Both the position numbers and the translations under genes were made by a program. Positions 11,936 to 16,570 of a stretch of DNA of 64,000 bases are shown one piece after another. The notes beneath the pieces are model-generated. The model was not told the DNA's origin, ran no database searches, and saw only the letters and a list, made by a program, of their open reading frames with translations. How positions within the stretch are numbered: position 1 is the stretch's first letter; each line of letters starts with the position of its first letter. The stretch comes from Natrinema marinum (GTDB lineage: Archaea; Halobacteriota; Halobacteria; Halobacteriales; Natrialbaceae), in contig NZ_CP100763.1 in NCBI RefSeq assembly GCF_024296685.1, positions 682,001-746,000 of the forward strand, in the 5' to 3' direction.

Positions 11936-13114
11936 ATGCACCCCCCGGGAGCCGACACCGTCCTCGTCCGACACGGGGACGTAAACACCAAGAGCAACAC
12001 CGTCAAGCGGTACATGGAGGGGCTCCTCGTCGAGAATCTCGAGGCCGTCCTCGCCGACCGATCGATCCCCGGCGAGGTCGAGCGCCGGTGGAACCGACCG
12101 CTGATCCACACGAGCGAGGACGCCGTGGCCGACGCGACCGCGGCCGCGACCGATACCTTCGGGGTCGTCTCCGCCAGTCCCGCGCTGACCGTCAGCACCG
12201 AGAAAGAACGAATCATAGCGGCGCTCGAAGAGACCGCTCGCGAACACTACGACGGCGGGACGTTCGCGGTCGACGCCCGTCGAGCGGACAAAACCCTCCC
12301 CTACGACAGCGAGGACCTGGCCCGCGAGGCCGGAGCGGCCATCTGGGAGGCCGTCGAGGACGAGTTCGAGCCCGCGGTCGACCTCGACGATCCGGATCTT
12401 ACCTTCGGCGTCGAAGTCCGCGAGGATCTGGCATTTCTCTATCTCGAGCAGCGAGACGGACCAGGGGGGCTCCCGCTTGGCTCTCAGGAGCCGGTGATCG
12501 CGTTAGTCAGCGGCGGGATCGACTCGCCGGTCGCGGCCTACGAGATGATGAAACGCGGCAGCCCGGTCGTCCCGGCCTACGTCGACCTCGGCGATTACGG
12601 CGGGATCGACCACGAGGCGCGCGCGATGGAGACCGTTCGGCTCCTCTCGGAGTACGCGCCGAACTTCGACATGCAGGTCTATCGAATCCCCGGCGGCGAG
12701 ACGGTCGACCTGCTCGTCCGGGAGATGGAACAGGGCCGGATGCTCTCGCTGCGCCGCTTTTTCTACCGCGCGGCCGAGACGCTGGCCGAGCGCGTCGACG
12801 CCAACGGCATCGTCACCGGGGAGGCCGCGGGCCAGAAGTCCAGCCAGACCGTCCGGAACCTCGGCGTCACCAGCCGTGCGACCCGGCTTCCGATCCACCG
12901 CCCGCTGCTGACTCGAGACAAGCAGTACATCGTCGCGCAGGCCCGCGAGATCGGTACCTTCACCGACTCGACGATCGACGCCGGCTGTAACCGCGTCACC
13001 CCCGATCGCGTCGAGACCAACGCCCGCCTCGAGCCCCTGCTGGCCGCCGAACCCAACGGTTTGCTCGAGCGCGCCGAAGAAGCCGCCAAGAACGCAGACC
13101 TGGTCGAGCCCTGA
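11936..13114 (+). CDS. thiI: tRNA 4-thiouridine synthase ThiI
   Basis: 392 residues. The N-terminal ferredoxin-like and THUMP RNA-binding region (~1-165) is followed by the PP-loop adenylation domain with 'SGGIDSP' starting at residue 192. Further signatures are 'GEAAGQKSSQTVRNL' and 'RPLLTRDKQYIVAQARE'. The family adenylates and thiolates U8 of tRNA. There is no C-terminal rhodanese domain, as in most archaeal ThiI, so sulfur must come from another route; one Cys in 'DAGCNRV' is a candidate. A CTTATAG box about 28 bases upstream supports the ATG at 11936. Confidence 0.94.
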   Translation: MHPPGADTVLVRHGDVNTKSNTVKRYMEGLLVENLEAVLADRSIPGEVERRWNRPLIHTSEDAVADATAAATDTFGVVSASPALTVSTEKERIIAALEETAREHYDGGTFAVDARRADKTLPYDSEDLAREAGAAIWEAVEDEFEPAVDLDDPDLTFGVEVREDLAFLYLEQRDGPGGLPLGSQEPVIALVSGGIDSPVAAYEMMKRGSPVVPAYVDLGDYGGIDHEARAMETVRLLSEYAPNFDMQVYRIPGGETVDLLVREMEQGRMLSLRRFFYRAAETLAERVDANGIVTGEAAGQKSSQTVRNLGVTSRATRLPIHRPLLTRDKQYIVAQAREIGTFTDSTIDAGCNRVTPDRVETNARLEPLLAAEPNGLLERAEEAAKNADLVEP

Positions 13115-13159
13115 AACGGAGTCTCGGCACTCGCTTCCGCACTGTCGTAGACGGCCCAG

Positions 13160-13345
13160 CCAACCACCGCCGGGCGGGACTGAAAGGGGCTGCACCGGTG
13201 AGCGCGAACAGCGTGAGCGCGATTCACGGGAGAGCAAGCTCTCCCGGTGGTCGGCGAAGACGGGCGACGCAAGCACTGCAGCGGTGAGCGAAGCGAACCC
13301 GAAGCGCGCAGCGAGCCCCTCGAGTCGACCGGTGCAGGTGCTTTC
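13160..13345 (+). repeat. Structured dispersed repeat, copy 1
   Basis: It starts with a pyrimidine-rich/GC block and GGGACTGAAAGGGGCTG and ends with GCTTTC. A 10-bp stem (CTGCACCGGT, 13190-13199, with ACCGGTGCAG, 13328-13337) closes the element, and a second perfect 8-bp hairpin sits at 13228-13245. Blocks GAAGACGGGCGA and GCGCGCAGCGAGCCC are shared with copy 2. It fills most of the 338-base gap between thiI and the next gene; nothing else is visible there. Similar short elements are, as I recall, widespread in haloarchaeal genomes; function unknown. Confidence 0.75.
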
Positions 13346-13452: not shown

Positions 13453-14043
13453 GTGACCCGCGTCTGTCTCATCGGCGAGGATGGGAGCAATCTCCAGTAC
13501 GAACTGCTCTCCCGGGAGACCGCCCGCGAGGCGCTCGCGACCTACGACCTCGAGCGGCCGTTCGAGAACTCGCTGGCCCTGCGGACGGTCAGCATCGGAG
13601 CCGCCGTCTCGCTGCTGAACGACCTGAACTGGTATCTCACCCGGTTCGTCGACGCGGCGCTGGTCCAGGAGCCGAGCATCAGCGACGACGAGTGGCTCTC
13701 GCGGTCGCTGGCCACCGAGCTTCGAAACGGCGCGATCGAGCCCGCGGAAACGGCCGAATTCTGCAAGATTTACGGCCTCGAGCGGGTCGATGCGGGGCTC
13801 GAGGCTGACGAAGAGGAGGCGCTCGATCGAGGACCGGAAAACGAGTCAGGGACCGTCGACGCGGCGGACGCGGCCGATAGCGACTCGAACGATGCTGCCC
13901 GATCAGGGGCGGTCGAGCCGACGTACCGGCTCGTCGAACCGCTGTACGTTCGCCGGACCGACGGCGACCTCCCCGAGTACGATCTCAGAGACGTCGAGGA
14001 CACCCTCGTCGTCCGACTGACCGAAGCCGAGTACTCGCCGTAG
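13453..14043 (+). CDS. Haloarchaeal conserved protein (DUF5804-like)
   Basis: 196 residues from a GTG start. The N-terminal ~115 residues ('TRVCLIGEDGSNLQYELLSRETAREALATYDLERPFENSLALRTVS', helical thereafter) look like a compact alpha/beta domain. An acidic Asp/Ser/Ala linker (~120-155) follows, then a short C-terminal beta segment ('PTYRLVEPLYVRRTDGDLPEYDLRDVEDTLVVRLT'). No catalytic motif, signal or membrane segment is seen. The protein appears restricted to haloarchaea and its role is unknown. It converges with the lipoprotein gene downstream, with a 9-base gap. Confidence 0.75.
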   Translation: MTRVCLIGEDGSNLQYELLSRETAREALATYDLERPFENSLALRTVSIGAAVSLLNDLNWYLTRFVDAALVQEPSISDDEWLSRSLATELRNGAIEPAETAEFCKIYGLERVDAGLEADEEEALDRGPENESGTVDAADAADSDSNDAARSGAVEPTYRLVEPLYVRRTDGDLPEYDLRDVEDTLVVRLTEAEYSP

Positions 14044-14880: not shown

Positions 14881-15861
14881 TCAGTCGAACAGGCCGGTCG
14901 AGAGGTATCGCTCGCCACTGTCCCAGAAGACGGTGACCACGAGCGGGCAGTCGTCGGCCCGACCGCCGTCGGTCTCTGGCGAGGCTGGCTCGCCGACGTC
15001 GTCGAAGGCGGTCGGGATCTCCGGACACTCGACGCTGGGATCGGCGATCTCTCGAGCGATTCGCTGGGAAGCCAGGCTCGTCGCGCCGCTGGACTGGCCG
15101 ACGAGGACGCCCTCTTCGCGAGCGAGGCGGCGACACTCGTCTTCGGCGTCCTCGAGTTTCACGGTCTCGACGCGGTCGATCAGGTCGACGTCGAGGTTGT
15201 CGCTGACGAAGCCGGGGCCCATTCCCTGGAACTCGTCCTGGCCGGATTCGCCGGTCGAGAGGACGGCGTTTCTGGCCGGTTCGACCGCCACGATATCCAT
15301 ATCGGGGAACGCCTCGCGGAGGCGGCGGCCGGTGCCCGAGAGCGTGCCGCCGGTGCCGACGCCGGCCACGAAGGCGTCTATCTCGCGGTCGCCGACCTGC
15401 TCGATGATCTCCTCGCCCGTCGTCTTGTAGTGGGCCTCGGGATTCGCCGGGTTCTCGAACTGCCCGAGCTGGATCGCGCCCTCGGCCTCGAGTTCGTCGG
15501 CGCGGTCGCGGGCTGTCGACATGTCGCCGTCGACCAGCTCGAGGTCGGCCCCGTAGGCGGCCATGATCTGCCGGCGCTCCTTCGATTTGTCCGACGGCAT
15601 GACGATCGTCAGATCGTAGCCGCGGGCGGCCGCGACGAGCGCGAGGCCGATCCCCGTGTTGCCGCTGGTCGGTTCGACGAGGCTGTCGCCGGGTTCGATC
15701 AGCCCGTCTCGCTCGGCGGCCCGGATCATCTCGCGGGCCGGCCGATCCTTGGCCGAGCCGCCGGGGTTGAACGATTCGATCTTGGCCGCGACCGTCACGC
15801 CCTCTGGCGAATCGACCTGGACGAGCGGCGAGCCGATGGTGTCCAGAATGCTCCCTTTCAT
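14881..15861 (-). CDS. cysK: Cysteine synthase family PLP enzyme
   Basis: 326 residues. The PLP lysine lies in 'NPGGSAKDRPA' (SxKD), the substrate loop is 'EPTSGNTGIGLALVA', the phosphate loop is 'GVGTGGTLSGTGR', and 'GQSSGA' is near the C-terminus. The enzyme condenses O-acetylserine (or O-phosphoserine in some archaea) with sulfide to make cysteine. A ~25-residue hydrophilic insertion occurs near residues 285-305, before the last strand. The gene stands alone between the lipoprotein gene and repeat copy 2. Confidence 0.93.
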   Translation of the reverse strand: MKGSILDTIGSPLVQVDSPEGVTVAAKIESFNPGGSAKDRPAREMIRAAERDGLIEPGDSLVEPTSGNTGIGLALVAAARGYDLTIVMPSDKSKERRQIMAAYGADLELVDGDMSTARDRADELEAEGAIQLGQFENPANPEAHYKTTGEEIIEQVGDREIDAFVAGVGTGGTLSGTGRRLREAFPDMDIVAVEPARNAVLSTGESGQDEFQGMGPGFVSDNLDVDLIDRVETVKLEDAEDECRRLAREEGVLVGQSSGATSLASQRIAREIADPSVECPEIPTAFDDVGEPASPETDGGRADDCPLVVTVFWDSGERYLSTGLFD

Positions 15862-15973
15862 TGCACCACTCTAGGGAATCGAGACGTAAACGCGTGCTGG
15901 ACTCAGGCAGGACGTGCCGGCTCATCAGTAGCGCGCTCCTCAACACCGGTCTAGTATGAGACCGCAGACAACC

Positions 15974-16107
15974 AGAAAGCCCCTGGGCGTCTCGAGTCGA
16001 TGGGCTCGCTGCGCGCCGTCCTCACGCCGTTCGGACGGTGCTTACATCGCCCGTCTTCCCCCGAGACGCCCAGCCCCTTTCAGTCCCACCCCGCGGTGGG
16101 TGGTCGG
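15974..16107 (-). repeat. Structured dispersed repeat, copy 2
   Basis: Read on the minus strand it has the same left end (GGGACTGAAAGGGGCTG) and right end (GGCTTTC) as copy 1, with the same inner blocks. The closing stem is different in sequence but perfectly paired: CTGGGCGTCTCG (15983-15994 on the plus strand) with CGAGACGCCCAG (16062-16073). It lacks about 50 bases present in copy 1 (13200-13252 region). It occupies the gap upstream of cysK and the thioredoxin gene. Confidence 0.75.
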
Positions 16108-16189
16108 GCGGCTACGAGAAAAGGTGACGGCGCGCGAGACTACCGCCTGAAACACCGCGGTTAAGCCCGCCGAGGCGTAAGTCGTGCGT

Positions 16190-16570
16190 ATGAGTCTCGA
16201 GACCATGCGGCCGAACCCCACCTGGGATGCGGCCAGCTACGAGGAGGCGGTCGATACGCTTGCAGCGCACTGCGACGAACTGACCTACAAGATCTGGGGC
16301 GGCGACTGGTGCAAGGACTGTCGCGCCTTGCTGCCCGACTTCGGCGCGGCGCTCGAGGCCGCCGAGGTGCCCGACGAGCGCATCGAGGAGTACGCTCTCG
16401 ACGAGGACAAACAGGGCCCCGGCGTCGAGGAGTACGAGATCGAACTCATCCCGACGATCGTCGTAGAGAACGACGAGGGCGAGGAGATTACGCGCTTCGT
16501 CGAGGAAGAGGACGTGCCCCCGGCGGTTTGGCTCGCCGACGAGATCGAAACCGCGCTCGAGTCGTCGTAG
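16190..16570 (+). CDS. Thioredoxin-fold protein
   Basis: 126 residues. The active site is 'GDWCKDCRALLPDF' (CxxC at about residues 43-46), and 'IPTIVVENDEGEEITRF' supplies the cis-proline strand. Likely a cytoplasmic thiol-disulfide oxidoreductase. Unlike classic WCGPC thioredoxins, the dipeptide between the cysteines is Lys-Asp. A GTTAAG box ~30 bases before the ATG at 16190 supports this start over an upstream in-frame GTG at 16184. Confidence 0.88.
   Translation: MSLETMRPNPTWDAASYEEAVDTLAAHCDELTYKIWGGDWCKDCRALLPDFGAALEAAEVPDERIEEYALDEDKQGPGVEEYEIELIPTIVVENDEGEEITRFVEEEDVPPAVWLADEIETALESS

Follow-up and report, generated by a model that had tools for sequence, protein, structure and literature searches.

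The window, a stretch of 64,000 nucleotides (G000:C1:682001-746000), is a piece of the 3.77-Mb haloarchaeal chromosome of Natrinema marinum. It contains two copies of a hairpin-forming repeat, each between two protein-coding genes. The features of both loci are summarized in Table 1.

Table 1. Features at the two repeat loci (positions counted from the first base of the window)
Feature	Position	Strand	Description
thiI, upstream neighbour of copy 1	11936..13114	+	PF02568, E 4e-40
Copy 1, 5' flank	13154..13181	+	ends in GGGCGGGACT
Copy 1, core hairpin	13182..13345	+	164 nt, stem CTGCACCGGT/ACCGGTGCAG; direct reading of the sequence
Copy 1, extra segment	13200..13252	+	about 53 bases with further hairpins (GTGAGCGCG..., CGGGAGAGCAAGCTCTCCCGG)
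DUF5804 gene, downstream neighbour of copy 1	13453..14043	+	PF19120, E 2e-54
Cysteine-synthase-like (PALP) gene, 3' side of copy 2	14881..15861	-	PF00291, E 1e-68
Copy 2, 3' tail	15960..15974	-	TGGTTGTCTGCGGTC
Copy 2, core hairpin GAAAG...CTTTC	15975..16081	-	107 nt; direct reading of the sequence
Copy 2, parts of the core			helix GAAAG/CTTTC that closes the hairpin; internal loop GGG/GGG; stem of 12 bp, free to vary in sequence; inner domain in which GAAGACGGGCGATGTAAGCAC / GCGCGCAGCGAGCCC are conserved
Copy 2, 5' flank	16082..16117	-	GTAGCCGCCCGACCACCCACCGCGGGGTGGGACT; small hairpin and conserved GGGTGGGACT; conservation profile, own-genome alignment
Thioredoxin-like gene, divergent, 5' side of copy 2	16184..16570	+	PF00085, E 5e-6

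Architecture of the repeat

The two copies share the frame GGGACTGAAAGGGGC...GGGGCTTTC; their stems are unrelated and fully paired in each. Copy 1 reads GAAAGGGGC-TGCACCGGT ... ACCGGTGCA-GGTGCTTTC on the plus strand, and copy 2 reads GGGTGGGACTGAAAGGGGC-TGGGCGTCTCG ... CGAGACGCCCA-GGGGCTTTC on the minus strand. The original prediction had described perfect pairing of different stems inside a conserved frame; direct reading of the sequence bore out its coordinates, the stems it quoted and the pairing in both copies, and the inner blocks GAAGACGGGCGA and GCGCGCAGCGAGCCC, which it took to be kept, are present in both. The frame is shared as proposed, with the addition of the extra segment in copy 1. 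The GGCTTTC border, given as common to both, is exact in copy 2; copy 1 ends in GGTGCTTTC instead.

A model was built from five copies of the same genome; it comprises 43 pairs, 17 of which show two-sided changes. It matched copy 2, one of its own source copies, at G000:C1:697971-698117 (E 1.4e-23), and copy 1 at G000:C1:695190-695349 (E 1.8e-8). The genome contains eight model matches at E <= 0.01, one of them a short form in which the inner domain is missing; another short form was matched at E 0.016. The two short forms are located at C1:1216516-1216582 and 1567328-1567389 (L067, L068). An expansion similar to the extra segment of copy 1, and larger, is present in a copy between cysM-like and thioredoxin genes of another genome (G007).

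The hairpin formed by the GGGACTGAAAG strand has a GAAAG/CTTTC base, a GGG/GGG loop, a stem of 10-14 bp that is free in sequence, and an inner helix interrupted by A-rich bulges. The outer GAAAG/CTTTC is also paired and encloses the conserved 3x3 GGG/GGG internal loop. The order of the frame is GGGTGGGACTGAAAGGGGC, stem, inner domain, stem', and GGGGCTTTC (GGTGCTTTC in copy 1), and the core is mostly 100-119 nt long. In a profile of 184 copies, conservation of the 5' flank is strong from -10 to -1 and weak to about -20; across the family the 3' tail is conserved to about +14. In the QS_9_67_17 MAG the unit measures about 54 + 107 + 54 nt, with shared 5' flanks and tails and the ends GTGTTCAG/CTGAACAC.

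A three-base rhythm follows the hairpin and continues to about +45. From +9 to +44 after CTTTC every third base avoids G (0.11 vs 0.30) and favours C (0.43) in elements L124-L243. When each of the 85 genomes contributes a single copy, the median p is 6e-12; beyond +60 the rhythm has almost disappeared. A reading frame was ruled out as the source of this period, as it would contain stop codons and would not be GC-rich at its third position.

Two variants of the architecture were observed. A different inner domain (AGCGACCCCTATC...GATATGTCGCT) lies inside the same outer frame in L142, L146, L177, L180, L187, L198, and L215, as if inner domains were exchangeable. The 3' arm and tail are tandemly duplicated in L233, L241, L219, L202, and L215, the duplication being exact in L233 and L241; a single 5' arm could pair with several of these 3' arms.

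Stem pairing is maintained while the stem sequence is free

Two copies by themselves would be weak evidence of a structure under selection. We collected an unbiased set, using a motif that ignores the stem, from 84,980 species genomes; the matches listed contain 127 unique copies. In these 127 listed copies, Watson-Crick pairs occupy 9.18 of the 10 stem positions 9-18, while shuffling the partners leaves 4.50 (sd 0.15); 109 distinct 11-base stem sequences occur. Sliding the arms by 1-3 bases lowers the paired fraction in the listed motif-only matches from 0.92 to 0.20-0.30. In a model-fitted alignment of 113 copies, 93.6% of the cells are paired, compared to 71.9% after shuffling and at most 49% after sliding; two-sided changes are found at 36 of the 43 pairs, and none of 500 shuffles reached any of these measures. 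The 113-copy alignment leans towards the model, which makes the set collected by motif alone the better test.

Orthologous copies, identified through locus-wide synteny, are located between thiI and DUF5804 in related species. At this locus the pairs have been swapped in place: the stems are CTGATCCGATCGAC/GTCGATCGGATCAG, CTGCTCCGATCGAC/GTCGATCGGAGCAG, and CTGGCTCTCTCGAG/CTCGAGAGAGACAG, among others, and the copies remain paired in the different species, with an overall identity of about 75-80%. The stem pairing is thus maintained while the sequence is free, orthologous loci included. The original prediction had read the compensatory change between copies 1 and 2 as the mark of a structure under selection, and had proposed aligning the copies of one genome and looking for excess covariation over many copies. 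The five-copy model supplied the former, and the excess in the 127 listed copies is far above the controls; together with the in-place swaps at thiI, the covariation above shuffled and slid controls supports that reading.

Distribution, subfamilies, and loss of copies

The repeat was matched in 24 of 197 genomes of the phylum, all of them in Halobacteriales, the order of the window. In the scan of 84,980 species genomes, the matches listed fall throughout in the class Halobacteria. The number of copies per genome ranges from 0 to 69 (69 in G028, 53 in G031, 14 each in G007 and G021, and 8 in G000, the genome of the window), and cultivated species with many copies include Haloarcula rara and Halosimplex salinum. 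The copies sit in intergenic DNA; 17 seeming gene overlaps are probably due to over-extended gene starts.

The copies form genome-specific subfamilies and inverted pairs. The similarity of the 5' flanks is 0.48 within genomes and 0.30 between genomes (p 8e-24), and even inside one genome the flanks are weakly alike. Among the matches listed, 33 of the 127 copies are in head-to-head pairs. In L126, L131, L163, L182, and L185 (Haloarcula rara) and in L141, L152, and L186, about 30 bp separate the two members of such a pair; in Haloarcula rara this spacer approximates the palindrome GCCGGTTGGCCAACCGGC.

Copies are often lost via deletions at the hairpin base. Genome G014 has lost three copies by deletion, which left GGGACT^TTC at two sites and GAAAGGGGCTTTC at the third. 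Both deletion forms recur across the family, and reversed control patterns gave no matches. The recurrent GGGACT^TTC junction was considered as the product of a dedicated excision, and this was rejected: the longer-homology collapse to GAAAGGGGCTTTC is no rarer, so both forms can be put down to ordinary deletion across short direct repeats. The alleles examined included no pre-insertion site with clean junctions; the empty alleles look like deletions, and around the copy at 3441 kb the intergenic DNA is too diverged for precise insertion boundaries.

Eight plasmid records had matches, all outside annotated genes, and no common neighbour gene was found in the five plasmid records inspected. Large haloarchaeal plasmids of Halobaculum, Salinigranum, Halobiforma, and Natrinema (L120-L123) carry the repeat outside annotated genes; the gene layouts around it are similar in the L122 and L123 plasmids. 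No match was found in annotated phages. The 15-base motif matched 33 viral contigs, which were considered as carriers; these matches are probably due to chance, because the hairpin is present in none of them.

The folded strand and the nature of the element

Were the pairing held by a double helix or by symmetric repair, each strand should carry G-T and A-C mismatches at equal frequency. The GGGACTGAAAG strand shows an excess of G-U over A-C mismatches: 72 to 19 in the listed matches of the unbiased set (p 2e-8), 83 to 16 in 160 copies, and 74 to 15 within the inner helices. What is selected is therefore the single strand of this polarity in its folded form, and the folding strand is fixed. 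This asymmetry is unexpected from strand-symmetric repair, and it bears on the idea that intrastrand template switching or cruciform repair keeps a DNA palindrome perfect, with no selection for structure. Long hairpins are deletion-prone, and copying one arm onto the other would mimic compensation; however, such repair would also erase the GGG/GGG loop and the inner bulges, which survive in nearly all copies. We consider this explanation improbable.

The same strand preference, together with the GA-rich bulged internal loops, is typical of RNA. The GGGACTGAAAG strand might be transcribed alone or within longer transcripts, the RNA binding a protein or regulating each locus as a multi-copy small-RNA or UTR element. 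In-place conservation at thiI agrees with this, as does an excess of sense copies in tandem gene contexts in the motif-and-pairing set (54 vs 34, p 0.04); in the listed matches of the unbiased set, however, the bias is only 28 vs 20. A stand-alone small RNA gene would have its own promoter and terminator, whereas in the listed copies a TATA-like hexamer within the 90 nt upstream (-90..0) occurs in 0 of 127, and T-runs of at least five bases in 7 of 124 downstream regions. Gene context makes no difference to pairing (11.4 of 12 pairs in copies antisense to both neighbours, 11.0 in sense copies), and a UTR role is unlikely because the antisense copies pair just as well. The repeat resembles the structured RNAs of Rfam 15 in its covarying helices and conserved internal loops, yet no family matched at the gathering cut-off; a relaxed threshold likewise gave nothing on either copy, and the only two sub-threshold matches lie outside copies 1 and 2. 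A structured non-coding RNA is a possibility we take seriously, though we would not call it probable. Since there is no promoter and pairing is independent of the direction of the neighbouring genes, these sequence patterns make folded single-stranded DNA slightly preferred; it appears at least as likely as RNA, by a small margin.

Several dispersed repeats are comparable. SMR-A elements of Haloquadratum walsbyi are described as commonly more than 95% identical within a type and as inserting into PATE and IS605 palindromes (PMC3119063). Compared by description, the present repeat resembles SMR-A in being haloarchaeal, about 110 bp long, and without coding capacity, in its terminal inverted repeats and tens of copies, and in ends unrelated to a known transposon: the core is mostly 100-119 nt with GAAAG/CTTTC ends and no link to a transposase. 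It is set apart from SMR-A, again by description, by its 109 distinct and covarying stems in 127 listed copies, its weakly alike flanks, and the absence of its border at 60 TnpA/TnpB loci sampled. REPINs are REP hairpins in inverted pairs. These REP/REPIN (BIME) elements of bacteria, which go with RAYT transposases (PMC2817692, PMC3116915), are likewise intergenic, hairpin-forming, dispersed, and found in inverted pairs; the haloarchaeal core is about 100-115 nt versus 20-40 in REP, and the motif is another one. RAYT-driven REPs would have a Y1_Tnp gene (PF01797) in the host and repeats flanking the transposase gene, whereas no Y1_Tnp match was found in G028, G031, G007, G021, or G000, and no border was found at the 60 TnpA/TnpB loci.

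The same loci bear on whether the repeat descends, as an inactive form, from IS200/IS605 elements (PATE) or from a TnpB transposon. In Haloquadratum, PATEs have been described that carry near-terminal palindromes and show deletions of the core, and the repeat shares with them the lack of a transposase, the palindromic form, and repeat-mediated core deletions (PMC3119063). However, copy number does not follow the counts of TnpA (rho 0.15, p 0.36) or TnpB (rho 0.07, p 0.64), the border was found at 0 of the 60 loci, and kinship to IS605-type termini was not found in this sample of IS loci. Such a derivation is very unlikely. A MITE would share its terminal inverted repeats with an autonomous transposon and be flanked by a target-site duplication; among the alleles examined no clean pre-insertion site was found, and the check for a partner covered the IS200/IS605 class. 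A search of the open literature found no paper on this haloarchaeal hairpin element or its motif.

We favour, tentatively and at somewhat less than even confidence, a Halobacteriales-specific, non-coding, transposase-free, REP/SMR-like dispersed repeat that is recognised as a folded strand and spread by a host-encoded factor. A chromosomally encoded factor would recognise the folded single strand, with single-stranded DNA slightly preferred over RNA, together with the fixed GAAAGGGGC/GGGGCTTTC borders, akin to the recognition of REP/REPIN hairpins, and would copy the repeat into new intergenic sites. A purely selfish repeat would be expected to decay after insertion, yet the copies at the thiI locus stay paired across species; this in-place conservation suggests that some copies also act locally, and it is the chief argument against a wholly selfish element. 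More doubtful is whether the repeat represents a new class of archaeal self-spreading structured nucleic acid, in which a host enzyme other than an IS200/IS605 transposase would spread a folded single strand whose borders are fixed, whose inner domains can be exchanged, and whose tail is read three bases at a time.

Covariation of such strength generally counts as proof of a functional RNA. The repeat that shows it here lacks a promoter, reaches 69 copies per genome, and pairs equally well whatever the direction of the genes around it. Either a large haloarchaeal RNA family has gone unnoticed, or a mobile hairpin of DNA produces the complete signature of covariation, and both answers bear on structured-RNA discovery and on archaeal mobile DNA.
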